A stretch of 64,000 bases of DNA from Galliscardovia ingluviei (lineage in GTDB: Bacteria; Actinomycetota; Actinomycetes; Actinomycetales; Bifidobacteriaceae): contig NZ_BMDH01000002.1 in assembly GCF_014635685.1 (NCBI RefSeq), positions 216,472-280,471 on the forward strand, in the 5' to 3' direction. A program made the position numbers and the translations under genes. Below, piece by piece: positions 6,804 to 47,189 of the stretch. Numbering within the stretch: position 1 is the stretch's first letter; every line of letters starts with the position of its first letter. The notes beneath the pieces are model-generated. The model was not told where the DNA came from and did no database searches. It saw only the letters and a list, made by a program, of their open reading frames with translations.

Positions 6804-6940
6804 TATTCTTTTTGCTTGAAATTCCAATAAAAAAGTGTGGTATATTGCTATACCACACTATGGTTATCAAAAAAATATTGAGCTACTCATGTGTAATACC
6901 AAATACACGGTATTACACATACACGCCATATTACAAAGAA

Positions 6941-8266
6941 CTAGTCAATTTGCGCACCAAGAGCTGTCAATTTGCCACGGAAGTCTGCATACCCACGGTC
7001 AATCAGCGAAATACCGTGCACGTCAGAAGGACCGCTTGCAGTCAATGCCGCAATCAGATGACTAAAGCCTCCACGCAAATCAGGCACGTCAATATCTTGA
7101 CCAGTAAGTGGAGTTGGCCCAAAAATAACAGCTGAATGCTTGTAATTACGCTGCTGGAAACGGCAAGGCAACGATCCTAGGCACTCCCGATACAGTTGCA
7201 CAGTTGCACCCATTTGCACGAGTGGCTTAGTAAAACCAAAGCGATTCTCATACACCGTCTCGTGCACAATAGACAAGCCTTTAGCCTGAGTTAAAGCCAC
7301 GACCAACGGCTGCTGCCAATCAGTCATAAACCCAGGGTGTACATCTGTTTCAATAGCAACTGGCTTCAAATCGCCACCTGGATGCCAGAATCTAATACCA
7401 GCATCAGTGATATCAAATTCTCCGCCAATCTTGCGGAATACATTCAAGAAGGTCATCATCTCAGGCTGAGTAGCACCCTTAACAAACACGTCACCATGCG
7501 TTGCTAATGCTGCCGAAGCCCAGCTTGCCGCCTCAATGCGATCCGTAAGCGCCGTATGCGTATAGCCCTTAAGCTCTTTAACACCTTCAATACGGAATGT
7601 ACGGTCTACATCAACCGAAATAATGGCGCCCATTTTCTGCAAAACAGCAACCAAGTCCATAATTTCCGGCTCAGTAGCAGCACCAGAAAGCTCAGTTTTG
7701 CCCTCAGCAAGCACTGCTGCAAGCAATGTCTGCTCAGTGGCACCAACCGAAGGGTATGGCAGATGAATTTTAGCGCCTTTTAAGCCGTTTGGCGCAGTAA
7801 TATGAATACCATCTGCATGTTCTTTATCAACTTTGGCACCCAATTTGCGCAATGTATCTAAATGGAAGTCAATTGGACGTCCACCAATATTGCAACCACC
7901 CAAGGCTGGAATAAACGCTTCACCAAGACGATGCAACAACGGTCCGGAGAACAGGATTGGGATACGCGAAGAGCCAGCCAAAGTATCCACATCAGCAACA
8001 CTTGGCATTTCCACATGTTTGGCATCAATAGTGACTACGCCTTGAGCACCATCAACATCAACATGAATACCGTGCAAGCGCAATAAATCTGACACTACAT
8101 GCACATCACGAATTTCCGGAACATTGCGCAATACCGAAGTCCCCGGAGCCAGTAGCGCTGCAACCATCGCTTTACTGACAAAGTTCTTAGCACCGCGAAC
8201 TTTGATTGTTCCATGAAGTGGCTTACCACCAACAACGTGGAGCACGTCCTCGTTTTGATTACTCAC
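6941..8266 (-). CDS. murA: UDP-N-acetylglucosamine 1-carboxyvinyltransferase (MurA)
   Basis: Catalyses the first committed step of peptidoglycan synthesis, transferring enolpyruvate from PEP to UDP-GlcNAc in the cytosol. The 441-residue length and EPSP-synthase-like two-domain repeat are as expected. The active-site lysine is in VRGAKN (Lys27), and the catalytic loop LGGCNIGGRPIDFHL carries Cys125, the residue alkylated by fosfomycin. The C-terminal block VPDLRGGFSHLIAAL and RGYADFRGKL matches the family. The usual GAKNAALP motif reads GAKNFVSKA. The start is a GTG at 8266 preceded by AGGGAG. An unusual CTAG-rich repeat array lies 80-200 nt upstream. Confidence 0.96.
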   Translation of the reverse strand: MSNQNEDVLHVVGGKPLHGTIKVRGAKNFVSKAMVAALLAPGTSVLRNVPEIRDVHVVSDLLRLHGIHVDVDGAQGVVTIDAKHVEMPSVADVDTLAGSSRIPILFSGPLLHRLGEAFIPALGGCNIGGRPIDFHLDTLRKLGAKVDKEHADGIHITAPNGLKGAKIHLPYPSVGATEQTLLAAVLAEGKTELSGAATEPEIMDLVAVLQKMGAIISVDVDRTFRIEGVKELKGYTHTALTDRIEAASWASAALATHGDVFVKGATQPEMMTFLNVFRKIGGEFDITDAGIRFWHPGGDLKPVAIETDVHPGFMTDWQQPLVVALTQAKGLSIVHETVYENRFGFTKPLVQMGATVQLYRECLGSLPCRFQQRNYKHSAVIFGPTPLTGQDIDVPDLRGGFSHLIAALTASGPSDVHGISLIDRGYADFRGKLTALGAQID

Positions 8267-8345
8267 TATGTTCTCCCTGGCTTAACGCTTTCTCCTGCAG
8301 GTTTTCACCGGTAGCAGTTTCGTTTACATCGTCATTACGATAATT

Positions 8346-8466
8346 CTAGTACCAAATACTAGTTGTAATACCTCATCACTAGCCTGTACAACTAGCTATA
8401 CTAGTTGGAATACTAGCTGTAATACTAGGTCACTACTCTAGCATGAGTGCTACACGGTTTAGCTAG
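8346..8466. repeat. CTAG-rich 12-bp iteron array upstream of murA
   Basis: A 12-bp unit of consensus TACTAGYTGKAA is seen at 8357 (TACTAGTTGTAA), 8399 (TACTAGTTGGAA), 8411 (TACTAGCTGTAA) and, degenerate, at 8377, 8389 and 8423. The copies at 8399, 8411 and 8423 are head-to-tail. CTAG occurs nine times in 121 bp, although it is rare in most bacterial DNA. The array lies between the stop codon of the TraX-family gene and murA, so it most likely belongs to the murA control region. Confidence 0.75.
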
Positions 8467-8516
8467 TAGTGTGACACAGATTTTGTGAATAGTGCGTGAA
8501 TGGCGCTCACAACATA

Positions 8517-9344
8517 CTACGCTAATACAGCCAGCACAGCAAAAAGCACAAGGTGCACTACATAGTACACATAAAAACCAAGACCTACCGCCTTCTTGGT
8601 ATATCCTAACTGGTCATTGTGATAATGCACCACTGCCACGCCTAATCCTGGCGTTAGACCTGCAAGAGCACCTACCACAGCCGCAGAGTACATCATCGTA
8701 TTTTCATGACGATGCAGTATTTCAAAAATAATAACCATGGCAAGGAGCACCAGTCCCTCATTCATCACACCTACACGCACACCAAAATGACCAAGGATTA
8801 ACCAAAGCACAGCAGCAGCACAAACCACTATCCGAATACCAATACTTTGTCCATAGCTCACCTGATATACAGGACCTGTGTAGGCATCATGCACTGGACG
8901 TGTGTCTAATGATCGCAATACCACAATCACTACTATGCAAACAGCAACAGCCCACACAGGATTATTCGATGTGCTGTCGAACCACACATGACTGGTTGCC
9001 ATATCATAGGGCACTTCACTCAGTGCAGCAAGCAACAGCACTCTACCTAAGTAATGCCACAGGTGCTGTGAATGATGCACACCCATAACGGTAATCCACG
9101 CAAATATTGGTATGGCGACCCAACTTACCGCGTCAAGCAATATGGCAAGTGTTAAATCACCTATATTATTCATATCAATATGCGGCATTACAACAGCGGT
9201 ATTCAGCGTCCCTAAGGTAAGTAAAACCATAGCGATGATTTTTAGCCGAAACATACTCAACCCACGCTGACGTTTACGCCGCCTCGGAGCCTCTGGAGCT
9301 GACTGATGGATACTGGTATTCCATTCACGTTTATATAATGCCAC
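8517..9344 (-). CDS. TraX-family integral membrane protein
   Basis: A multi-pass membrane protein of the TraX family (named after the F-plasmid pilin N-acetylase but common on chromosomes with unknown role). The family signature is visible: FRLKIIAM, then an IPIFAWITVMGVHHSQHLWHYLGRVLLLAALSEVPYDMA block, followed by about six further hydrophobic helices. A basic RRRKRQR stretch precedes the first helix. The start is chosen at GTG 9344, which has AGGGG 5 nt upstream; a TTG at 9374 gives a longer reading. The function in this organism is unknown; acetyl transfer to a surface component is a family-based guess. Confidence 0.75.
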   Translation of the reverse strand: MALYKREWNTSIHQSAPEAPRRRKRQRGLSMFRLKIIAMVLLTLGTLNTAVVMPHIDMNNIGDLTLAILLDAVSWVAIPIFAWITVMGVHHSQHLWHYLGRVLLLAALSEVPYDMATSHVWFDSTSNNPVWAVAVCIVVIVVLRSLDTRPVHDAYTGPVYQVSYGQSIGIRIVVCAAAVLWLILGHFGVRVGVMNEGLVLLAMVIIFEILHRHENTMMYSAAVVGALAGLTPGLGVAVVHYHNDQLGYTKKAVGLGFYVYYVVHLVLFAVLAVLA

Positions 9345-9398: not shown

Positions 9399-10241
9399 CT
9401 ATTCATTGCTATTGAGCAATCGATCTATTTGCTGTACTGCTTCGCCTGTCAAACCGTTATGCTGAGCAATATATTGAGCCAGACGGTAATAATCTGCTCC
9501 TTGCACTGAGCACACGGCATCTTGGGCAATCTCAGGCTGTCCCCATGAAGCAGGAGAAGTATGCAAGTAAAATGCATCAATTCCCGCCCTACCAGCTCCC
9601 TGAATATCATTGACTTCTTCATTTCCAACCATCAGAGCAGACTGCGCCGCACAGGGCACCAGCGCACACGCCCGCTCAAAAAACGCTTTATTCGGTTTAC
9701 GGATTCCTTCTTCTGAAGAGATAAGCACATGATCAAAACTCTTCGCTAAGCCACAATCTTCCAGTTCTGGTCGTGTAAATAGTGACTGCGCATTGGAAAC
9801 TAGTACTGTAGTGAGCCCCCATGCGCGCAATAGTACTAAAAGCGATGCAGCATGAGAGTAAGGCTCAAGCTTGCGATTACTAGCCACTCTAAATGCTGTA
9901 GCACATGCTTGTACCATCGATGCAGTTATGGCACTATGGGCACCCATGCCCGCACGAAGAATACTGACAAAAACAGGGGCAATATCAAATTCATGCTCAA
10001 TATCCGCAACTCCGTTAGGCAGTGCCGATTGCACTTGCAACAATGCTTTACGATAGCGTTCTCGCAAAACAACAGCCGATGCAAAATGGCAACCCTGTGC
10101 ACTCAACCATCTGTTAAATTCCTCAAACGTTTGCAGTTCATCTTCCTCAGTATGCGCATCAACAAGTGTGCCATACAAATCAAAGAAAATCGCGGTATAT
10201 GGTTCGTGTGAAATACTACTTGCTCTAGAATCAGATTCCAT
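9399..10241 (-). CDS. HAD-superfamily hydrolase (YjjG-like phosphatase)
   Basis: A 280-residue haloacid-dehalogenase-type hydrolase, probably a small-molecule phosphatase in the cytosol. Motif I is FFDLYGTLVD with the nucleophile Asp, motif II is LVSNAQS, the conserved lysine is in IRKPNKAFF, and motif IV is MVGNEEVNDIQGA. A helical C1 cap of about 100 residues lies between motifs I and II. The order matches YjjG/pyrimidine-nucleotidase-like enzymes, but the substrate cannot be assigned. The start ATG at 10241 is preceded by AAGGA at 6 nt. A longer in-frame reading to 10331 has no such site. Confidence 0.85.
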   Translation of the reverse strand: MESDSRASSISHEPYTAIFFDLYGTLVDAHTEEDELQTFEEFNRWLSAQGCHFASAVVLRERYRKALLQVQSALPNGVADIEHEFDIAPVFVSILRAGMGAHSAITASMVQACATAFRVASNRKLEPYSHAASLLVLLRAWGLTTVLVSNAQSLFTRPELEDCGLAKSFDHVLISSEEGIRKPNKAFFERACALVPCAAQSALMVGNEEVNDIQGAGRAGIDAFYLHTSPASWGQPEIAQDAVCSVQGADYYRLAQYIAQHNGLTGEAVQQIDRLLNSNE

Positions 10242-37563: not shown

Positions 37564-38106
37564 TTACTGCGCCTGCTCAGCTGGCTCACTTGCCTGTTGT
37601 CGCACAGTATCAAGTGCTGTATTAAATGCTTCTGTAGTCCAGCTAGCACCAGCTACCGTATCCACATGCAGACCTTTAAGCGGCTTGCCAATGACTACTG
37701 CACCAATATTGCTCGCAAAATTATCTTGATGTTCTTTGGAAATAGACGTAAATGGGTGTCCTACAATACTGACATCGCTGATATTGCCTGACTGCACCGT
37801 AACATGCACATCAATCGTATCTTCTCCAACAGGCCCGTACTGCCCTGCTACATCATAGGTGCCGTCTTTATACACCCCAGTATCTTGTGCAGCATTAGTA
37901 TCGCCAGTATTTCCTTTGGCACTGTTATTGCTATTGCCTTGAGTGGCAGTGGAACCATTACTGCTTTCGCTACCACCGGTGTTGCTGGTAAATTCATCAT
38001 TCATAGGAACGGCTTGAGGCTCACCGCATCCTGCTAATAATGCTCCCGTGGCACTGAGTAATGCCAATGTTGCTGCAGTAGTTCGTATTGTATGTGACTG
38101 TGCCAT
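37564..38106 (-). CDS. FMN-binding-domain lipoprotein of the iron-uptake operon
   Basis: A 180-residue lipoprotein (lipobox LAGC, Cys27) with a Ser/Asn/Gly linker and an FMN_bind domain (about 78-172; YKDGTYDVAGQYG). The segment DTVAGAS (149-155) matches the ApbE flavinylation pattern Dxx(s/t)gA(S/T), with Ser155 as predicted FMN acceptor. It is the last gene of the iron operon, 21 bp after the ABC ATPase. I infer that covalently bound FMN on the outer face passes electrons to ferric iron or to partner proteins. Its presumed modifying enzyme, ApbE, is encoded divergently at 46023. Confidence 0.88.
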   Translation of the reverse strand: MAQSHTIRTTAATLALLSATGALLAGCGEPQAVPMNDEFTSNTGGSESSNGSTATQGNSNNSAKGNTGDTNAAQDTGVYKDGTYDVAGQYGPVGEDTIDVHVTVQSGNISDVSIVGHPFTSISKEHQDNFASNIGAVVIGKPLKGLHVDTVAGASWTTEAFNTALDTVRQQASEPAEQAQ

Positions 38107-38127
38107 TTCCCTACGTATAAGCCTTCC

Positions 38128-38898
38128 CTACTGTTTGGTAATGCGCTGTATTGTTTGATCGTCTGCTAATACACCCTCAAGATGAGCACCAGTACTTGCC
38201 GGCAATCCACCTTGTGCTTCATAGCGCTGACGTGCTTGCTCATCATTCCAACGCTCACCCACCAGCACACCATGGTTCAGCATAATCTCACGTTCTGAAC
38301 ATTGCGCTACTGCAGTATCATGCGTTACCACAATAATAGTAGTACCTTGGCTATGCTGCTTGCGCAAAATATCAAGAACTAACTGCTCATTATGCTCATC
38401 AAGATTGCCAGTCGGCTCATCAGCCAAAATAAGACGTGGACAGTTAATCAGCGCACGCGCAATACATACTCGCTGCTGCTCACCACCAGAAAGCTCTCCT
38501 GGCAGATGCTTCGCACGATCGGCAAGTCCTACTTGAGCGAGCGCCTCTCGCGCTTCATCAGCATTAACAACAGAATGGTAATACTGCGCCATCATCACAT
38601 TTTCTAGAGCAGTCAAATGTGGCACTAAATGGAATTTTTGAAATACCAAACCAATTTCATTTTTGCGCACATCGGCTAGCTGTTTTGCATTCAAATCATT
38701 TAATACGCGCCCATCAAGGGTAACCGTCCCCTTGGAAGGCGTATCCATACAGCCGATAATATTCATTAACGTGGTTTTGCCTGATCCACTTGAGCCAACA
38801 ATAGACAGCCACTGACCTTCTGGTACCGTTAAATTCAAATCATCAACAGCATGTAGGTCGCCGTAAATCTTACTAATATGTTCTAGTTCAAGTAGCAT
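38128..38898 (-). CDS. ABC transporter ATPase, MacB/LolD-like, iron-uptake operon
   Basis: A 256-residue ATPase with Walker A VGSSGSGKTTL, Q-loop LVFQKFHLVPHLTALENVM, signature LSGGEQQRV and Walker B LILADEPTGNLD, of the MacB/LolD branch that works with FtsX-type permeases rather than with solute importers. The 30-residue tail is variable. AGGAG lies 4 nt before the ATG and overlaps the stop codon of the permease gene upstream, so the two are coupled. It probably energises the two permeases encoded just upstream. Confidence 0.93.
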   Translation of the reverse strand: MLLELEHISKIYGDLHAVDDLNLTVPEGQWLSIVGSSGSGKTTLMNIIGCMDTPSKGTVTLDGRVLNDLNAKQLADVRKNEIGLVFQKFHLVPHLTALENVMMAQYYHSVVNADEAREALAQVGLADRAKHLPGELSGGEQQRVCIARALINCPRLILADEPTGNLDEHNEQLVLDILRKQHSQGTTIIVVTHDTAVAQCSEREIMLNHGVLVGERWNDEQARQRYEAQGGLPASTGAHLEGVLADDQTIQRITKQ

Positions 38899-38899
38899 G

Positions 38900-40180
38900 T
38901 TACTCCTCTCGCAACACTACGGCTGGATCAATGCTTGCAGCGCGACGCACTGGAGGAATGCATGCCACGATATCAATAATGATGGCTGCTCCTACAGTAA
39001 TTAACGCTAAAAGTGGGTTAAATGGCAAACTGCGATCAAAAACGGTTTGGCATAGCACACTTGCAACTATTTGCCCGATACCAATACCAAGCAATGCACC
39101 GATTACGCCATACAGCACTGATTCAATACAAAATTCCATACCAATCGACCATGATGATGCACCGAGTGCTTTGCGCAAACCGATTTCATTACGTCGCTGC
39201 CCTACCATCGATGCCATAGTGGTGGAAACACCTACTAAAGTCAAGGCAAGCACTACCAGAGAAACCATCCAAAATAGTGTTTGTAGCATGGTGATAATGC
39301 GTTCGTTTGATGAGGTCATACGAGATACTTGCCGAGCACTGACTGGCACGCTTAACCCATCTTGTGCTGCAATGGCTTGCGACATACTAAACAGCGTATC
39401 AGCGTCAGCATCTACAGCAAACTCAATTACATCAACGCCACGCTCACCGGCTAATTGGTTCACATCATGATTAGTGGCGTAAATAATATCGTCTTCATTA
39501 CCTCCGGTGTCAACAATGCCACCTACTTGGAATTTGGTGCCACCGCCTTGCAAAATATCCGTTGATACACGACCATCTCGGCTATGCGACTGGGTAGACT
39601 CTTGCCCCTGATTCGCTTGGTTAGTAGATTGCGCTTGGTTAGTAGACTGCGTTTGGCTGCCAAATTGCGCGTTATCGTCAGCACGATACGCTATTTCCAA
39701 CGTAGAGCCAACCTTCAAATCCAACGCGGTCGCCACATCGCGACCAACCATAATATGACCATTACTTGGCCAATGACCATCCACCGACCAATGATGATTG
39801 ATTGCTTGCACATCGTTACTATCAATGCCGGCAAGCATGTATGGTGCTGCATGGATGCGAACATTTTCATATCGATAGGTTGCACTTTGTGCATCCCCTA
39901 CCGCTGTCACATCTTGGGTAATAGTGCGAACATCCTGTGTGCTTGCCCCACCATCAGAGGCACGAACGATAAGATTTGCGCCAAAGGATCGCATATCATC
40001 GCGCATTTGCTGTGGCACCACGATACACACTGCAGCAAGGCAAAATAATGTAGCAGCACCCACTAATGTCGCTACAATGGCCATGAGTGCGCGAGATCGT
40101 CTACGAAACACAGCACCACGGATCATGGTGGCAAACATGCGTCTATTAGAGACATCATGTGCAGTATGAATATTCACCAT
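38900..40180 (-). CDS. FtsX/MacB-type ABC permease, iron-uptake operon (second permease)
   Basis: A 426-residue permease. One N-terminal membrane helix (about 23-45) is followed by a large extracytoplasmic MacB-like domain of roughly 250 residues, then three helices and the FtsX family block MASMVGQRRNEIGLRKALGASSWSIGMEF. The extracytoplasmic domain contains a Gln/Ser/Asn-rich stretch (SQTQSTNQAQSTNQANQGQE). GAAGG precedes ATG 40180. It is one of two dissimilar permeases in the operon, likely a heterodimer. Related permease pairs accompany P19/FTR1 iron systems in other bacteria. Confidence 0.9.
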   Translation of the reverse strand: MVNIHTAHDVSNRRMFATMIRGAVFRRRSRALMAIVATLVGAATLFCLAAVCIVVPQQMRDDMRSFGANLIVRASDGGASTQDVRTITQDVTAVGDAQSATYRYENVRIHAAPYMLAGIDSNDVQAINHHWSVDGHWPSNGHIMVGRDVATALDLKVGSTLEIAYRADDNAQFGSQTQSTNQAQSTNQANQGQESTQSHSRDGRVSTDILQGGGTKFQVGGIVDTGGNEDDIIYATNHDVNQLAGERGVDVIEFAVDADADTLFSMSQAIAAQDGLSVPVSARQVSRMTSSNERIITMLQTLFWMVSLVVLALTLVGVSTTMASMVGQRRNEIGLRKALGASSWSIGMEFCIESVLYGVIGALLGIGIGQIVASVLCQTVFDRSLPFNPLLALITVGAAIIIDIVACIPPVRRAASIDPAVVLREE

Positions 40181-40216
40181 TTTGTACCTTCTCAGCTGTA
40201 GTCCCATGTATCGTCT

Positions 40217-41698
40217 TTACCGTCCATGCAGCACTTGCGCCGGCTGCACGCGCACAATCGCACGAATTGAAGAAATAGAAGCAATGAGCACAGTAAGTGT
40301 TAGTAACACTGCCACGAGCACAAATACCATCGGGCGCATGGTAATGCCACTACCAAATACCACGTGTCCAACCAGCTGAGCTGCTCCTGACCCTACAAGC
40401 GCTCCAATAACCGCACCCACAGCAGCGATAATGCCTGTTTCAGCAAGCATCAGCCGAATAACTGCTCCATCAGTTGCACCAATAGCTTTAAGCAGAGCCA
40501 ATTCTCGGGCGCGCTGAGCAAGCGAAGATGCCATTAAATTAGCAATAGCAATAGCTGCCGCTATCAGAGAAAGCACCGTCATAACAATCATTACCGTGCG
40601 CGTTTTTTGTAATACTTCACCTTGTAATGCAGAAACCTGGCGAACCTGCTTGGCAACTGCTACAGAAATTACTTCTTCTATCTGATAGGCAATCGAGCTT
40701 GGATATGCTGTGCAATACCATGTTTCCCAATCTTCGCGACTGAGAGCAGCTGGATTTTTTGCAGCACGACGCGCTAAATCATTTTCTGGTGTCGTTAATG
40801 CTTTGACTTCAATGCGATCCACGCTATCTGGCAAATTAGCCAGTTCTTGAGCAATGCCTGTTGGAATAATAACTTGCTGTGCAGCACCATCATGCGAATC
40901 ATAAATACCGGCTACGGTAACAACCAACTCACTATGATGGTCACCAGCGGCCATTTTATGCATTGTCATACGCGAGCCAACATGCAAACCTAACGCCTGT
41001 GCAATATCCTTACCGACCAGCGCCTCTTGAGCTTGATCTTTAGGCCAAGCGCCTTCAATACTCCACCACGAGCGCATCCCCTGAATACCAGCAACTGTGG
41101 TTTCGCCAGTTGGCAACGATAGTTTTTTCGCAAACCATGTGCCCATAACCGGCACAGATACACAACCTGAACCTTTAGCCATGCAGTCGCGCTTACCAAG
41201 GGCAACTTGCGCGTGAATATTGAGTTCTGGAGCGAAGTTTGTAATATTGTATGCCCAGAAAATAGTCTTTATTTTCGCAGCATCTGATTCTTTAAGCAAG
41301 TTGCTACCATCTGCTGCGCTATCTGCGGCTGTTGGCTCGCTATCACCTATGCTGGTAAGTCCGCCAGTTTCTGACTTGCGCTGCATACTACTATCCGCAG
41401 CATTATCTGCACTGTGCTGACTATGCGTTGCATCAGACGTACTAGAAGCGCTGCCTGACATAGCATCTGCCCCACTTGCAGTGCCATACAGCTCATCAAT
41501 TACAGAATCTGCGCGAGGCTGCACCGTAATATTGGAACCGTAGGTTGTTAATTCAGCATTCAGCTTGTCACCTACATCGAAAACAATACCGAGCATAGCC
41601 ACGCAAATTGTTGCACACAAAGCTACTGTAAGGGCGATAAGCGAGCGCTTGGCGAATTGTTTACTCAGTGAGCGCAGCACCATGCGTAATCCAAACAT
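40217..41698 (-). CDS. FtsX/MacB-type ABC permease, iron-uptake operon (first permease)
   Basis: A 493-residue permease with an N-terminal helix (about 20-42), an extracytoplasmic domain of about 330 residues and three C-terminal helices. The cytoplasmic block SSLAQRARELALLKAIGATDGAVIRLM is typical. The extracytoplasmic domain has a Ser/Ala/Asp-rich insert (about 70-125) and two cysteines close together (KRDCMAKGSGC). AAGGAGGG precedes the ATG. It is 11 bp after the DUF2318 gene and 36 bp before the second permease. Confidence 0.9.
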   Translation of the reverse strand: MFGLRMVLRSLSKQFAKRSLIALTVALCATICVAMLGIVFDVGDKLNAELTTYGSNITVQPRADSVIDELYGTASGADAMSGSASSTSDATHSQHSADNAADSSMQRKSETGGLTSIGDSEPTAADSAADGSNLLKESDAAKIKTIFWAYNITNFAPELNIHAQVALGKRDCMAKGSGCVSVPVMGTWFAKKLSLPTGETTVAGIQGMRSWWSIEGAWPKDQAQEALVGKDIAQALGLHVGSRMTMHKMAAGDHHSELVVTVAGIYDSHDGAAQQVIIPTGIAQELANLPDSVDRIEVKALTTPENDLARRAAKNPAALSREDWETWYCTAYPSSIAYQIEEVISVAVAKQVRQVSALQGEVLQKTRTVMIVMTVLSLIAAAIAIANLMASSLAQRARELALLKAIGATDGAVIRLMLAETGIIAAVGAVIGALVGSGAAQLVGHVVFGSGITMRPMVFVLVAVLLTLTVLIASISSIRAIVRVQPAQVLHGR

Positions 41699-41709
41699 TG
41701 CTGCCCTCC

Positions 41710-42984
41710 TTACTTAAAATGTGATGATAAAGCGTCCAAATCAGCAGTATGTATCGTAATATGACCACCGCTTGCAGTGTATGGCACCGGAATAGGATTG
41801 CAGCCTCCCTTAAAGCCGATAGTGGCAAGGTTAATAGCTACATCGCAACGTTTGCAAATAATTTTGCCGCCCTTCTCATAGTAGCCGGCATCGCCGCATG
41901 TTTCGCATGCATCAAGTGCTACTCCGTAAGCACCACCATTTTTCTTAATCACAATAAAGCGCATGGCTGTGCCATCTTTTGCTTTGTAGGCAAATCTATG
42001 CAAATGCCCGTCAGCAACTTGCTCAAAAGTAATAGTCGCGGTATCGGCTTGTAATGAGTACTCTTCTGGCTCAGAAAGGGTTGGCACTTTGCGGGTTTGA
42101 GATACACCAACCGTGAGCGCAATACTTACTGCAATCAATGCCACACACACCCAGAGTGCAGAGCTTATCGCATGGCGGCGCAGCGCGGAGGTTTGTCTTA
42201 CTTGTGCTTGATTGGCTTGGCTTGGTGCTTTGGCTTTAAAGCCCAGCACCAATGAAGCGAGAATTGGCAGTACGAATACAGCCAGCTGAGCCAGGGTCAA
42301 AGGAATTGTGGCATTATGCACACTGATCAGTGCTCTAAATGGCGCTCCATGCAAACGCAAAATAAGCATATTCATCAGCAGAACAATCAGCTCAGTGAAG
42401 TGCAATACCACATTAATGGCTACCACACACCATGCTGCAATGGTGAACCAGCGACGAATCTGCACAGTGCGCAAGGTATAGACGGTAACTGCTGCAAGCA
42501 CTGCCGTAGCAATACCTAATACAAAGCCCAGGGAGCGAATCAGCATTTCAGAGGTAAATGGAGAATCCCCTGGCTCTACTACGCGAGTTAATTGCAAAAT
42601 AACATCTGGTAGTGCATACAGGGTGGCCGCAGCAATATTAAGCGCTGCAATGGCATTCGCTATATGAAGCTGTACAGGATGCTGTTGCCAATCGGTAGTT
42701 GTGCGCCAAGCCCTAGCAACAACGACAAGCATCAGCACATCGGTAAGTATGCAGAGCACCAACAGCGGTAGATTAAGCGTAGAACGGCGGTCAAGTACCG
42801 CTGTGGTGCGTAGTAGAGCAAAAACGATGGCTGCAAGCACACCAATACCAAGTCCGTATAGTCTCCAATATTTGGAACGCGGTCGATTCTTGCCCTCTCC
42901 CACTGTAAGCAGGACTGAGCATCCTACTACCAGAAGACTTGGTGCTAACGTGCCAGCAAGCGCATGCACGTATTGCTCTAACAT
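41710..42984 (-). CDS. DUF2318-domain membrane protein of the iron-uptake operon
   Basis: A 424-residue protein. About nine hydrophobic helices fill residues 1-300; the C-terminal 110 residues form a DUF2318 domain with cysteine pairs CETCGDAG and ICKRCDVAIN, then FKGGCNPIPVPY. These Cys pairs look like a metal or redox site and lie after the last helix, probably outside. DUF2318 proteins occur with P19 and FTR1 in bacterial iron-uptake clusters, where their role is proposed to be electron transfer or metal handling. AGGAG lies 6 nt before the ATG. Confidence 0.88.
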   Translation of the reverse strand: MLEQYVHALAGTLAPSLLVVGCSVLLTVGEGKNRPRSKYWRLYGLGIGVLAAIVFALLRTTAVLDRRSTLNLPLLVLCILTDVLMLVVVARAWRTTTDWQQHPVQLHIANAIAALNIAAATLYALPDVILQLTRVVEPGDSPFTSEMLIRSLGFVLGIATAVLAAVTVYTLRTVQIRRWFTIAAWCVVAINVVLHFTELIVLLMNMLILRLHGAPFRALISVHNATIPLTLAQLAVFVLPILASLVLGFKAKAPSQANQAQVRQTSALRRHAISSALWVCVALIAVSIALTVGVSQTRKVPTLSEPEEYSLQADTATITFEQVADGHLHRFAYKAKDGTAMRFIVIKKNGGAYGVALDACETCGDAGYYEKGGKIICKRCDVAINLATIGFKGGCNPIPVPYTASGGHITIHTADLDALSSHFK

Positions 42985-43021
42985 ACTATTCTCCTATTAT
43001 GGCGTGCTTTATTGCATACTG

Positions 43022-43130
43022 TTGTCAGTAGTACTTGTTCTTGTCAGTAGTACTTGCGATACGGTTTACCACTGGCTCATGGTTTTCCACTGGTGCACTA
43101 ACTACCACTGGGGGCACTAACTACCACTGG
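43022..43130. repeat. Two pairs of direct repeats between DUF2318 and P19-like genes
   Basis: TTGTCAGTAGTACTTG is duplicated at 43022-43037 and 43041-43056. GCACTAACTACCACTGG is duplicated at 43095-43111 and 43114-43130. The second copy of the latter overlaps the last codons and stop of the P19-like gene, so the 3' end of that gene has been duplicated. Confidence 0.75.
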
Positions 43131-43780
43131 TGCACAGTGTAATCCCAATCAAATACTGCTTCTAGCGGCTCAGTCCAGTAATGACCTTTCACGCCGGTTT
43201 CTGGATCTACGTGCAGCATCCACCCGTTTTCTGCTGGGGAGTGAATTTTCAACGTGAGCGTGTATTCTCCGTCCTTATCAAGCTTGATATTGCCGCCATA
43301 ATGTGGTCCATCAGAGGCTACCATTTCCATAAAGGTGCCTTCTTGTGTATTTGATGGATCGTTTTTATCAGTAATCGTATAATCAACGGTCAGTCCCGGC
43401 ACAAATTCTCCAGCACCGTACCCGAGATTATTGTCTTTAAGCGCGTGAATATCGGCTTCCAAATGCAAATTAGAGTCAGCAGCGCTTAATCCCATACCTG
43501 CTGGTTCCATATCAATAGGCTGGAAGTATACTGCAGCAACATTCAACGGTCCTACTTCAATATCAGTATTGCCATTGGCATCATAGATTGGAATTTCTTC
43601 AAATCCAGCACTTTTGCTTTGCTCGCTACGTGCCTGATCAGATTGGCTTGATGACGCAGCACTATTGGAGGAGGCAGTATTGCCGCTACCACATGCTGCA
43701 AGTGACATACTTACTGTCGCAGCCAATGAAAGCGCCGCAATACGGCGTACCCATGGTTGGTTGGTAAAATTCAGGGACAT
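43121..43780 (-). CDS. P19/Tpd-type iron-transport lipoprotein
   Basis: A 219-residue lipoprotein (lipobox LAAC, Cys30) with a Ser-rich linker and the iron-transport P19 domain. Metal-site blocks are DMEPAGMGLSAADSNLHLEADIHA, with the conserved Glu, Met and His residues, VASDGPHYGGNI and GHYWTEPLEAVFDWDY. P19 proteins bind iron (and copper) outside the membrane and hand it to an FTR1 permease. AGGAGGG lies before the ATG. It is 71 bp after FTR1 and upstream of the DUF2318 gene. Confidence 0.93.
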   Translation of the reverse strand: MSLNFTNQPWVRRIAALSLAATVSMSLAACGSGNTASSNSAASSSQSDQARSEQSKSAGFEEIPIYDANGNTDIEVGPLNVAAVYFQPIDMEPAGMGLSAADSNLHLEADIHALKDNNLGYGAGEFVPGLTVDYTITDKNDPSNTQEGTFMEMVASDGPHYGGNIKLDKDGEYTLTLKIHSPAENGWMLHVDPETGVKGHYWTEPLEAVFDWDYTVHQW

Positions 43781-43851
43781 GATGTTCCCTCCTATGTGTT
43801 TATTGTGTTGTAGTGTGTTTTAGATTTTCAAGTAAGGTCAATGAGCGCGTA

Positions 43852-45693
43852 TTAGTTGGTATATTCTTGAGCGCGAATAGCGCGTTGTTTATAGAATTCA
43901 TAAATAAACAACCCTATAACAACAGCAACTGCTATTGCCTGTGCAATAAGCGTTTCTGCATATGGATATACGCCTAACCAGTCGCTTGTTGGCACGCCTG
44001 CAAGGTAGATTCCCGGCAACACATCGCCTTCAATAAGCGCGTGCACACCGCCTCCTGCAAAAACAACAACTAAAACCGACAGCAAGACTGAGGTAATAGT
44101 GAAGAAGGGGCCAATTGGAATTTGTACCGAAGTAAAGCGCAGCAGCACGAAAATCACCAGCAATACTATGGAAGCAGCAATAGCTCCTGCCCACATGCCA
44201 GCACTATCACGTGTCATGCCATACACAGATTCGTAGAAAATAACAGTTTCTGCACCTTCTCTAAATACTGCGAGAAAACTGAGCAGCGCTAATGAGGCTA
44301 TTGCAGAAAACGAAAGCGCCCCTTGCTCAACTTGGGTCTTGGCTTGAGCAACTGCTGATTGAGTTTTTTCTCGAATATAGCGATTCCATGAGGCTACACT
44401 AGCTTTACCGAGCATCCAATTGGATGTATACAGCAACATCACCATAGCTACCAACGCACAAACGCCTTCGAGAATTTCTTGCTGCGGACCGCTACCGCCA
44501 AAGAGTTGCATAAATACCACAGCAACTAATCCTGCGCCTGCAAGACCAGCAAGTACGCCAAGGTAGATCCAGCGAATAAGTTTGCGATTATTGGTTTTGA
44601 CTAAATATGCCACAATTGCCGTTACTACCAGTAGCGCTTCTAATCCTTCACGAATCAGAATTAAGAACGCCTGACCAAAGGTGCTGGTAATCCAGCGCAT
44701 AACCGTATTGCCATGTTCTCCTGCGCCTTGGTCTAGCTCCTGCGCATCTTGCACTAGCATTGTTTTGAGGCTGGCGATGTGCTGTTGAGCAGCCTTAGTA
44801 TCCCCAGCATTCATAGCTTTGCGCGCCTCTTTGAAGGTGCTTTCCACAAGGGAAACTCGCGAACCACTAATAGCGTTCATGACATTCTTTTCAAAGCCGA
44901 GTTTCTCATAATACTGGTAGTAGGCGTTATTCACGCCTTGAGCGCCAGCTTTGCCATTGCCTGCCTGAGCATCTTTCAATGCTTTGCCCAAAATAGTATT
45001 CATTTGTTCGGCAATTTGGCTCCATGTTTGTTCGCCTTTGCCTGCATTATGATTGACTTTTGCTGCATCTAAGGCTTTGCGTTCTTGTGCAGTCTGTTCG
45101 GCACGAGCTTTAGCATAGTCACGCGGATTGGCAAGATCTGACTGTGCATCAAGTGTGGCAGCTACGGTGCGCAAGGTATTGCATAAGTTGGTTACTGTAG
45201 TTTGCAATACCTCATCTTGATTCGCTGTGCGTGCTTGTGTTTGAGCACTGGTAAAGAGTTGCTGGATACTTTGGTTTTGCTCTGCTGATATGCGTGTTTG
45301 GACAACCTGTCCTAAATTACTTGCCACATACAGCACATTTCGTGTGGAGCGAATATCTGAAGCTGCTCCTGCAAAATCTTTAGCTTGATATTGCTTAAGC
45401 GCTGCTTGGAGCTGCGCCACGATTTGATCAACTAGTGCACTCCATGAATCATAGTCTGACGCAGTAGCGCTAATGGATTGGTCGGATTTTTTGGATTGGG
45501 CGGTTTGCTTGGATTGATTGGATTGTTGAGCAGATGCGAGGCCGTCTTTAGACACACTTGCCGCACTTGTTGTTGCTGACTGCTCCTGCGCGTAGGCACC
45601 CATCGGCAGTATGCCAACTATCAGTACCAGTAATGCAAGCAGTGCACCGAGTGCATACAAGTGTTGTGTCAGTTTGCGTTGACACTGCCCCAT
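43852..45693 (-). CDS. FTR1-family iron permease
   Basis: A 613-residue iron permease. A signal peptide is followed by an extracytoplasmic helical region of about 290 residues, Gln/Lys/Ala-rich, and then the seven-helix FTR1 core. The core has both REXXE iron-binding motifs: LIREGLEALLVVT and VFREGAETVIFYES. FTR1 moves ferric iron coupled to oxidation or handover by a partner such as P19. It is the first gene of the operon. AGGAG lies 4 nt before ATG 45693; upstream in-frame starts exist to 45738. Its leader folds into a hairpin (TATGGTA/TACCATA at 45722-45766). Confidence 0.92.
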   Translation of the reverse strand: MGQCQRKLTQHLYALGALLALLVLIVGILPMGAYAQEQSATTSAASVSKDGLASAQQSNQSKQTAQSKKSDQSISATASDYDSWSALVDQIVAQLQAALKQYQAKDFAGAASDIRSTRNVLYVASNLGQVVQTRISAEQNQSIQQLFTSAQTQARTANQDEVLQTTVTNLCNTLRTVAATLDAQSDLANPRDYAKARAEQTAQERKALDAAKVNHNAGKGEQTWSQIAEQMNTILGKALKDAQAGNGKAGAQGVNNAYYQYYEKLGFEKNVMNAISGSRVSLVESTFKEARKAMNAGDTKAAQQHIASLKTMLVQDAQELDQGAGEHGNTVMRWITSTFGQAFLILIREGLEALLVVTAIVAYLVKTNNRKLIRWIYLGVLAGLAGAGLVAVVFMQLFGGSGPQQEILEGVCALVAMVMLLYTSNWMLGKASVASWNRYIREKTQSAVAQAKTQVEQGALSFSAIASLALLSFLAVFREGAETVIFYESVYGMTRDSAGMWAGAIAASIVLLVIFVLLRFTSVQIPIGPFFTITSVLLSVLVVVFAGGGVHALIEGDVLPGIYLAGVPTSDWLGVYPYAETLIAQAIAVAVVIGLFIYEFYKQRAIRAQEYTN

Positions 45694-46022
45694 ATTGCTC
45701 CTATCCCAAGCGACCATCAGGTATGGTAGTTTGCACACGCTGTACTAGTATGCAGCAGATACCATAACTCTTGCGTAACGTAACTGAATTTCGCTACAAA
45801 GTATAGTCTTGACTTTTTTGCGTGATTATGATATATAATCTCTTTTTTCTACACAACTTATCAAACTATTGAAAAATAAGGGAAAACTGCCTATTAGTTT
45901 AGTATGTTATCAACCGATTGCCTACATATTCGCCAACACGCCGTCCAAAATATGAACTCATCTCAGATTGAGAGAGTTAAGAAGATGTAAAAGCGTCAAG
46001 CAGAAGCAATAGAGTACAAGAT
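45694..46022. promoter_or_regulatory. Divergent control region of the iron operon and apbE
   Basis: A 329-bp non-coding stretch. It contains a leader hairpin on the FTR1 side (45722-45728 with 45760-45766), a promoter toward apbE (-35 TTGACT 45809-45814, -10 TATATA 45832-45837, 17-nt spacing) and a perfect inverted repeat over that -10. The apbE ATG has no good ribosome-binding site. Confidence 0.55.
45824..45840. promoter_or_regulatory. Operator candidate GATTAT-N5-ATAATC
   Basis: The 17-bp sequence GATTATGATATATAATC is a perfect 6-bp inverted repeat with 5-bp spacer and overlaps the -10 of the apbE-direction promoter. It resembles Fur-type boxes in composition more than the actinobacterial DtxR/IdeR box. 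Confidence 0.5.
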
Positions 46023-47189
46023 ATGGCTGGCACACCTACCAAAATCCAAACACCACACAACCAAACTCACAGCACCGACGAAACCCACGGCACAACTCAC
46101 GAAACCCACAGTACCAACGAAACCCGCAGGCTTCCGTATAATACTACATTCCCTCACGCCTTTGGCACCGGCATTATTATAAGTACCAGTCAGCCAATAC
46201 CACAGGACTTATATTCACGCCTTACCGACTGCATTGAAACTATTGATCGTACCCTATCGCGATTTCGAGAAGACTCTCTGGTCAGCGCTATGAGGCAGGC
46301 ACCACACGGAGGCAGTTTTACCTTCCCTATGTGGTGTCAAGCGGTATTTGACTGTGCAGATAAGATGTTCCACCTTACCCAACATGCCCTCGACCCGTGC
46401 GTTGGTGAGGAACTTGGGCTACTTGGATACGGTCCAGCACTACAGCTCAATACCAGCAACACTACCAACACGAATATTGCAACCACATGGGCAACAGCAA
46501 TTACCAGAGAGCAAGACCAACCAACAATCTTGCACACAACAGCTCCTGTTGCTCTTGATTTTGGTGCTTTTGGCAAAGGTTTTGCAGTTGATCGCATTGC
46601 ACAGCTCTTAGAGACCTACCCAGCGTGGCAGCACAATAAGTCGCTTAACGCACACCACCCCAGCCCATCATTAGAGTACCCATTATTAGAGTACGTTATT
46701 AACGCTGGAGGCGATGTGCGCGTCTTATTGCACACCAATCCCCCATACCGCATTGGATTAGAAGATCCTCACAATCCGGACCTTGCTATCGGCGTGATGC
46801 CTATCCAGCAAGGTGCATTATGCGCTTCTTCACCAAGTAGACGCCACTGGGAGCAACAGCGCTTTGCAGCCATGCACACAGTGCATCATCTTCTCGATGC
46901 GAGAACAGGACAACCAGTACAAGATACACTTGCCAGTTGGGCTGCAATACCACTCGATATGCTTCAACAACTACCCGCTGAAACTACCGATGACCAGCGC
47001 CTTGCATACCATCTGTGTACAAAGTACCCTACGATGATTGCTGATGCACTGGCAACAGCACTGTTTACTACATCGGCTACCACACTCAGTACACGTTTTG
47101 CTGTACCAATGCTGGCACTCGATACCAGTTACAAGATTAGTTCACAATGCCAGTGGTATGGCACGCTGTTTACTGCAGCTGCTGACTAA
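46023..47189 (+). CDS. apbE: FAD:protein FMN transferase (ApbE)
   Basis: A 388-residue ApbE family enzyme that transfers FMN from FAD to Ser/Thr in FMN-binding domains. Visible motifs are DRTLSRFREDSLVS, ALDFGAFGKGFAVDRIAQLLE, VINAGGDVRV, HHLLDARTGQPV and MIADALATALF with the metal-site Asp. Residues 1-40 are a Thr/His/Glu-rich repeat (THSTDETHGTTHETHSTNET) with no signal peptide or lipobox. The target is probably the FMN-binding lipoprotein of the divergent iron operon. No good ribosome-binding site precedes the ATG. The 3' end overlaps the convergent phosphatase gene by 20 bp. Confidence 0.92.
   Translation: MAGTPTKIQTPHNQTHSTDETHGTTHETHSTNETRRLPYNTTFPHAFGTGIIISTSQPIPQDLYSRLTDCIETIDRTLSRFREDSLVSAMRQAPHGGSFTFPMWCQAVFDCADKMFHLTQHALDPCVGEELGLLGYGPALQLNTSNTTNTNIATTWATAITREQDQPTILHTTAPVALDFGAFGKGFAVDRIAQLLETYPAWQHNKSLNAHHPSPSLEYPLLEYVINAGGDVRVLLHTNPPYRIGLEDPHNPDLAIGVMPIQQGALCASSPSRRHWEQQRFAAMHTVHHLLDARTGQPVQDTLASWAAIPLDMLQQLPAETTDDQRLAYHLCTKYPTMIADALATALFTTSATTLSTRFAVPMLALDTSYKISSQCQWYGTLFTAAAD

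Follow-up and report, generated by a model that had tools for sequence, protein, structure and literature searches.

The bfeUO-sifABCDE operon of bifidobacteria is the Gram-positive form of the Campylobacter fetMP-fetABCDEF iron importer. It has been reported in 35 of 47 bifidobacterial species, and Tn5 mutants of the Bifidobacterium breve bfeUO-sif genes, sifE included, were reported to be impaired in growth when iron was chelated (Lanigan et al. 2017, PMC5449479). Liu et al. (2018, PMC6083913) described Actinobacteria and other bacteria, with a Bifidobacterium listed among them, that have a flavin mononucleotide (FMN)-binding protein where most Proteobacteria have a thioredoxin, and proposed a redox role for it. 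Meheust et al. (2021, PMC8238504) counted 260 P19 clusters that include an FMN-binding gene, most of them from Gram-positive bacteria. For Campylobacter, a growth defect was reported for each of fetA, fetB, fetC and fetD, and FetE and FetF were described as redundant (Richardson-Sanchez et al. 2023, PMC10783030). Here we analysed a locus of this type and its divergent apbE gene in a 64,000-nucleotide stretch of the Galliscardovia ingluviei genome (contig NZ_BMDH01000002.1, positions 216,472 to 280,471; hereafter the window).

The cluster in the window is of the known bfeUO-sifABCDE/fetMP-fetABCD iron-import type, whose main lines have already been described. FTR1, P19, an FtrD-like protein, two FtsX permeases and an ATPase follow one another in the order required of this type, and the seventh gene encodes an FMN_bind lipoprotein, as in SifE. 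The original prediction, made from the sequence, had placed seven minus-strand genes face to face with apbE; all eight genes were found where it had put them (Table 1), with every protein above its curated Pfam cut-off. Its central idea, a flavin electron path added to the importer, was already in print in the proposals of Liu et al. and Meheust et al. What is new here is the co-inheritance of ApbE and FMN_bind, the link to B. breve, and an ApbE without a recognisable export signal. The operon itself adds little; its value lies in making the site and timing of ApbE action in this lineage open to a concrete test.

We consider it probable (roughly 0.6) that this importer works with a SifE lipoprotein carrying covalent FMN on Ser155, installed by cytosolic ApbE before Sec export. 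It is from gene content, conserved motifs, co-inheritance, and the finding of neither an ApbE signal nor a TatC protein that we infer flavinylation, the compartment and sequence of events in which it occurs, and the route of the electrons.

Conserved features of the importer and SifE

The motifs named in the original prediction are all present in the window and conserved in aligned relatives. Two REXXE motifs occur in each of the 51 aligned FTR1 proteins. The FtrD-like protein carries CxxC-x13-CxxC-x14-C, the cysteine motif defined for DUF2318 by Liu et al. (PMC6083913), and CxxC-x13-CxxC-x14/15-C is kept in all 49 aligned homologues. The window FMN protein has DTVAGAS with Ser155, and AGAS is present in 31 of 31 aligned FMN lipoproteins. 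An FMN_bind domain with a conserved serine acceptor, as expected of an ApbE substrate, is thus present, with a Pfam score just above the cut-off. In ApbE, Ser269, His289 and Asp341 are invariant in 42 of 42 aligned sequences, and the ApbE profile matches solved ApbE structures; the equivalence of these residues to the catalytic Ser/His/Asp was read from alignments residue by residue, and they are candidates only.

Structural comparisons gave support of very different strength for the individual proteins. The P19 profile matched solved P19-type structures (best 3nrp, 9.3e-43; C. jejuni P19 3lzl, 6.7e-33). For the ATPase, the best NCBIfam models were FtsE, MacB and LolD, none above cut-off among the best 25 of 189. 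The FtrD-like model has a multi-helix N-terminal region of moderate confidence (mean predicted local distance difference test score 71.9). A known electron conduit was considered for its membrane domain, but no meaningful fold match was found in the PDB (best E value 0.46).

The assignment of SifE is the least secure and tells against our reading. FMN_bind is the weakest Pfam assignment of the eight (23.3 bits against a cut-off of 22). The best matches of the predicted SifE fold were 3o6u, which is flavinylated, and the SaFMN3/CbFMN4 domains (E 0.006-0.018). IscU entries also appeared among these matches, and no fold match reached E <0.001. A profile of the FMN alignment likewise gave no match to PDB sequences at 0.001.

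Distribution of ApbE and FMN_bind among importer loci

We searched 189 Bifidobacteriaceae genomes and found an FtrD-like protein in 133, ApbE in 125 and FMN_bind in 118. Within the 133 FtrD genomes, ApbE and FMN_bind occurred together by Pfam in 113, ApbE was accompanied by an FMN gene detected by blastp only in 3 (G014, G099, G121), and neither was found in 17. The FMN_bind Pfam match lay within 8 kb of FtrD in 111 of the 133. Together with the gene identities and the published B. breve phenotypes, this co-inheritance supports iron import with an associated flavin module, as originally predicted.

The apbE gene is often linked to the operon as well. Of the 116 genomes with both FtrD and ApbE, 109 had ApbE among the matches listed: within 8 kb of FtrD in 47, at 8-60 kb in 33 (largest distance 48.7 kb), further away on the same contig in 2 and on another contig in 27. 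ApbE therefore lay within 50 kb of FtrD in 80 of 82 same-contig genomes among the matches listed, and in 21 of 23 single-contig genomes, with 2 far apart. These counts take any ApbE on the contig, and same-contig pairs in fragmented assemblies favour short distances. Seven of the 116 genomes had no ApbE among the matches listed, one of which (G022) proved linked in the fetched locus. The divergent FTR1-apbE layout was seen in 7 of 8 fetched loci of the window's genus, the eighth contig ending at FTR1. It also occurred at several loci elsewhere in the family; in the Gardnerella locus L084, ApbE is co-directional with the operon. The expected linkage of apbE in relatives thus holds for many of them, but its divergent placement next to FTR1 is restricted to part of the family. 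At the class level, the FtrD-like search matched only 2 of 394 genomes (the window's own and one below cut-off), so that the linkage evidence in this class comes from the family.

Several features of this distribution weaken the case. The importer is kept without the FMN module in 17 of the 133 genomes, with the other six genes in place and no FMN gene found behind the ATPase, which indicates that the module is accessory rather than indispensable. In a quick tree of the operon with 49 rows (the window and 48 loci, fewer than all 133 genomes), the 17 genomes correspond to two joint losses rather than seventeen, so that the support from co-inheritance is modest. A treatment of the co-loss as seventeen independent cases was rejected, since Fisher p-values ignore descent. 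In G116 and G188, FMN_bind was found on another contig only, and none was found after the ATPase of G188. Outside the 133 FtrD genomes, ApbE was present in 9 (4 of them with FMN_bind) and FMN_bind in 5; the pairing rule is therefore not absolute across Bifidobacteriaceae.

The seventeen six-gene importers without the FMN lipoprotein and ApbE (L046-L062) include a clade of 13 genomes, in at least 9 of which the ATPase is followed by a large convergent gene with a hydrophobic N-terminus. A missing sifE has been reported for bumblebee species (Lanigan et al., PMC5449479). In Bifidobacterium cuniculi (L122), positions 6921-8685 hold two or more fragments of FTR1 together with a remnant of P19; ApbE begins at 10001, its matched part free of internal stops, and at the thresholds used the locus gave no match to FtrD-like, permease, ATPase or FMN proteins. 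This looks like an importer in decay while apbE lingers. Some Bifidobacteriaceae (L106-L111, L119, L120) have a second FMN_bind gene adjoining a second ApbE away from the iron cluster, and the ApbE of these loci shows no lipobox and no clear hydrophobic segment.

Possible electron path and its direction

In the mechanism that we propose, P19 would bind iron outside the membrane and pass it to the FTR1 permease, and the FtrD-like protein and the FtsX-type ABC (ATP-binding cassette) unit would aid import by redox or mechanical work. SifE, with covalent FMN on Ser155, may shuttle electrons to or from the iron site or the FtrD cysteines, taking the slot of the thioredoxin-like FetE/FetF of Campylobacter. 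The SifE precursor would be flavinylated by ApbE in the cytosol at a short linear motif, and the unfolded, flavinylated precursor would then undergo Sec export and lipidation. A role of the ABC unit in maintenance, as suggested in the original prediction, is conjectural: deletions of fetB, fetC and fetD were reported to equal the fetP deletion in iron sensitivity in Campylobacter (PMC10783030).

The source of electrons is a difficulty for this mechanism. NqrB/RnfD, Ferric_reduct and DsbD_TM gave no match in the window's genome (PepSY, NapH-like and DUF4405 were not searched). Across this genome and 11 relatives, NqrB/RnfD and Ferric_reduct were matched in 0 of 12, and DsbD_TM in 1 of 12 (the B. 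breve genome G036, below cut-off). As no known donor was found, a reducing SifE would have to draw its electrons from a source not yet recognised, and FtrD is one remaining membrane candidate.

It is possible, albeit clearly less probable than our proposal, that electrons flow in reverse, with SifE, like FetE/FetF, accepting electrons so that iron or the FtrD cysteines stay oxidised, as would suit FTR1 permeases, which are 'oxidase-dependent' and transport iron when it is oxidised. An extracellular electron sink for such a flow is not obvious, because bifidobacteria are fermentative anaerobes. Oxidation has been argued for FetE/FetF (PMC10783030) and for FTR1 permeases generally (PMC11966278): yeast Ftr1p requires a ferroxidase and FtrABCD is modelled as oxidase-driven (PMC11966278), and FetE resembles thiol oxidases, with loss of fetEF raising the reduction of 5,5'-dithiobis-(2-nitrobenzoic acid) in extracts (PMC10783030). 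The B. breve sif mutants were sensitive to ferrous chelators only, which was read as ferrous uptake (PMC5449479) and would suit an acceptor. On the other side, Liu et al. (PMC6083913) and Meheust et al. (PMC8238504) favour reduction for the FMN form, without a direct test, and the 2023 Campylobacter model retains relayed reducing power (PMC10783030).

Where and when ApbE acts

The original prediction had ApbE acting outside the cell, for which the sequences give no support: the window ApbE and its relatives show no recognisable lipoprotein signal. By a rule requiring a hydropathy-defined hydrophobic (h-)region and a lipobox before the domain, applied instead of SignalP, a signal was detected in 0 of 43 ApbE, compared with 30 of 31 SifE and 51 of 51 P19 proteins; the cytosolic ATPase control gave 0 of 50. 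Escherichia coli ApbE was positive by a similar rule and is the single ApbE positive control alongside SifE and P19, since other ApbE of the family show no signal either and are unusable for this purpose. Some loci overlap in this test (L082 and L100 are the same gene, and a single genome supplied both L065 and L066). Four of the 43 ApbE are less clear-cut and count against a uniformly signal-less family, as L101 and L086 have a hydrophobic stretch without a lipobox, and L104 and L016 a lipobox-like match without a hydrophobic stretch.

Tat (twin-arginine translocation) export also seems to be largely missing. TatC was matched in 6 of 189 Bifidobacteriaceae genomes (5 above cut-off), against 11 of 14 in a control set, and was not found in the window's own genome or in 183 of the 189. 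Because TatC is so rarely found, a folded flavoprotein is unlikely to leave by the Tat route. An ApbE without a recognisable signal and a genome in which TatC was not found speak against ApbE working outside the cell here and suggest flavinylation before Sec export; cytosolic flavinylation followed by Sec passage is the most likely order.

Published work makes such a cytosolic reaction conceivable. Cytosolic ApbE members are known, so that export, the feature usual for ApbE and absent from the window protein, does not define the family (PMC12052999). ApbE can modify a seven-residue tag, and truncated forms of ApbE and NqrC, expressed together in the E. coli cytosol, gave covalent FMN (PMC12052999); together, these reports make a linear motif on an unfolded precursor a plausible cytosolic target. 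Two considerations pull in the opposite direction. A cytosolic form of Salmonella ApbE was reported to be no substitute for the exported form in thiamine-free growth (PMC12052999), and Sec passage of a flavin-bearing chain is a step that our model presumes.

The same pairing extends beyond the family. No hydrophobic segment was detected in any of 61 ApbE from outside Bifidobacteriaceae, chosen non-randomly by similarity to the window ApbE (3 Bifidobacteriaceae of 64 were skipped), and 60 of the 61 had an FMN_bind gene within 1.5 kb. Among these 60 neighbours, a hydrophobic segment by the rule was present in 47 and a lipobox in 51. A single ApbE of the 61 (L186) has a lipobox-like match with no scorable upstream stretch. 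Of 79 genomes drawn across the class, 54 had ApbE; none of the 30 loci examined, which favour the best-scoring ApbE, combined a hydrophobic segment with a lipobox, and three (L213, L218, L220) had a lipobox-like match without a hydrophobic segment. Five loci with Saccharibacteria, Nomurabacteria, Uhrbacteria or uncultured bacterium labels (L155, L174, L180, L193, L196) also combine an ApbE lacking a signal with an FMN_bind protein whose N-terminus is strongly hydrophobic.

One may suppose that ApbE reaches the outside of the cell by a route that needs no recognisable signal and modifies SifE there, like the exported ApbE of other systems. Most ApbE enzymes indeed seem to be secreted, and the failure of the cytosolic Salmonella form to replace the exported one points the same way (PMC12052999). 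We nevertheless regard such an exit as unlikely, because 21 of the 43 family ApbE frames have at most 24 residues ahead of the domain, and because the ApbE from outside the family, similarly devoid of hydrophobic segments, stand almost always beside FMN_bind genes.

We tentatively extend pre-export flavinylation, at slightly less than even odds, to Bifidobacteriaceae at large, probably many Actinomycetes and some other lineages: exported FMN_bind lipoproteins would be flavinylated by cytosolic signal-less ApbE on a linear motif and then pass through Sec with their FMN. If this is true, there would be no need for export of flavin adenine dinucleotide, a prosthetic group would be attached before Sec translocation, and the standard picture of ApbE acting beyond the cytoplasmic membrane would change. 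Signal-less ApbE may have gone unnoticed because genes without a signal peptide or lipidation site were dropped before analysis by Meheust et al. (PMC8238504). We found no open-access PubMed Central (PMC) paper describing pre-export flavinylation of an FMN_bind lipoprotein.

Iron phenotypes of sifE and apbE in B. breve

Genome G036 was identified as B. breve: 13 of 16 published primers matched it exactly and 1 with one mismatch, and 2 (upstream of bfeU) were unmatched. It carries the seven operon genes in the order of the window, with one ApbE match and one FMN_bind match that lie far apart. The published Tn5 mutants bear out the iron phenotype expected for apbE and the lipoprotein gene. Mutants of sif genes, sifE included, were sensitive to dipyridyl and phenanthroline and not to ciclopirox, and the apbE mutant (Bbr_1825) showed the same sensitivities, milder in dipyridyl than those of sif (PMC5449479).

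This phenotype of the apbE mutant fits a loss of SifE flavinylation. As the B. breve genome examined has a single ApbE and a single FMN_bind match, failed flavinylation of SifE would be a simpler explanation than the Fe-S (iron-sulfur) repair proposed by Lanigan et al. (PMC5449479), in which ApbE aids cytosolic Fe-S cluster repair and its iron phenotype is unrelated to SifE. Their explanation draws on Salmonella apbE mutants with Fe-S defects (cited in PMC5449479), and the predicted cytosolic location of ApbE would suit it. The match between the mutants is also imperfect, as the apbE pattern is not identical to that of sifE, and mntH was likewise dipyridyl-sensitive and not ciclopirox-sensitive, so that the chelator pattern alone does not single out sif (PMC5449479). 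However, ApbE and the FMN gene are present or absent together in the 133 genomes with the transporter, ApbE is close to the operon in nearly all same-contig cases among the matches listed, no second FMN_bind match was found in the B. breve genome, and apbC, the other Fe-S gene of the screen, was ciclopirox-sensitive, unlike apbE (PMC5449479). Fe-S repair is therefore a rather improbable account of the apbE phenotype. It may be that the iron-sensitive sifE and apbE mutants of B. breve report one pathway, in which ApbE flavinylates SifE. No open-access PMC paper was found that joins Bifidobacterium apbE with SifE flavinylation.

Gene coordinates and neighbouring features

The features of the locus are listed in Table 1. 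The gaps between the seven operon genes, from FTR1 to SifE in gene order, are 71, 136, 11, 9, 1 and 21 bases. FTR1 probably begins at Met16 of its listed 628-residue frame. In the FTR1-apbE region and in the upstream regions of relatives, the best matches to a DtxR-type iron-box consensus overall did not exceed those in shuffled sequences (a Fur box was not searched for), and they were rejected as a sign of regulation. Rfam at gathering thresholds found two tRNAs in the window and nothing more. At 46.7%, the window has a low G+C content for a bifidobacterium, and in the operon tree its importer proteins have a long branch (0.56). The source genome comprises 2.09 Mb in 12 contigs and shares its genus group with 8 other genomes.

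Table 1 Features of the importer locus, in window positions
Feature	Position	Strand	Evidence
FTR1 iron permease, bfeU/fetM type, long N-terminal part	43852-45738	-	Pfam FTR1 2.3e-28; REXXE at 363, 493
P19/FetP/BfeO iron-binding lipoprotein	43121-43780	-	Pfam Iron_transport 2.3e-56; structure matches; lipobox
FtrD-like (old DUF2318) membrane protein, SifA/FetA type	41710-42984	-	Pfam PF10080 2e-33; Cys motif 360-395
FtsX/MacB-type permease 1, SifB/FetB	40217-41698	-	Pfam FtsX + MacB_PCD
FtsX-type permease 2, SifC/FetC	38900-40207	-	Pfam FtsX 7.7e-18
ABC ATPase, SifD/FetD	38128-38898	-	Pfam ABC_tran 4.8e-36
FMN_bind lipoprotein SifE; Ser155 of DTVAGAS is the likely flavinylation site	37564-38106	-	Pfam FMN_bind 23.3 bits; AGAS; lipobox
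apbE, FAD:protein FMN transferase	46023-47189	+	Pfam ApbE 1.3e-32; candidate catalytic Ser269, His289, Asp341
Divergent FTR1-apbE intergenic region	45739-46022	.	284 bases

Comparison with known systems

EfeUOB importers, with which BfeUO has been compared, are defined by an EfeB peroxidase and EfeO beside the FTR1 permease; among the ten window proteins scanned, no EfeB peroxidase or EfeO Pfam match was found. Siderophore ABC importers are defined by a FecCD-type permease and a siderophore-binding lipoprotein. In the window the permeases match FtsX, whose FtsX/MacB family is known for exporters and mechanical transmission, not importers, and the two lipoproteins match P19 and FMN_bind. With permeases of this kind, it is very improbable that SifABCDE imports siderophores as an ABC system of its own, equipped with a ferric reductase and distinct from BfeUO, as its naming by Lanigan et al. 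implies on the basis of annotation, even though bfeUO mutants, unlike sif mutants, were also sensitive to a ferric chelator (PMC5449479).

FtrABCD of Brucella/Bordetella shares with the window an FTR1-type permease, FtrC, and FtrD, the namesake of the Pfam family (PMC11966278). It differs in its cupredoxin FtrB, which was not matched among the window proteins, and the passages on FtrABCD in that source mention no ABC unit or flavoprotein (PMC11966278). The C. jejuni fetMP-fetABCDEF operon (1649-1656) has FTR1, P19, DUF2318, two permeases and an ATPase in the same order and the cysteine motif in common with the window; in Campylobacter the thioredoxin-like FetE/FetF occupy the slot of the FMN lipoprotein. 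It has a Fur box (PMC6083913), whereas the window, searched for DtxR-like boxes and not for Fur boxes, showed no DtxR-like box. The P19-associated flavinylation clusters (Meheust et al. 2021, PMC8238504) resemble the window in joining a P19 cluster to an FMN-binding gene.

B. breve bfeUO-sifABCDE has an identical gene set and order, with 51-81% identity per protein to the window. In G036, however, apbE lies 1.9 Mb from the cluster along the 2.27 Mb contig (about 0.36 Mb in the other direction, should the contig be a circle), whereas the window apbE is the divergent neighbour of the operon. Our reading also departs from that of Lanigan et al. (2017, PMC5449479), who assigned apbE to Fe-S repair and SifABCDE to siderophore/ferrous uptake. 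For the enzyme itself, the nearest parallel is the cytosolic ApbE of Klebsiella pneumoniae, which like the window ApbE has no signal peptide; its substrate is a soluble fumarate reductase, whereas the expected substrate in the window is an exported lipoprotein (PMC12052999).

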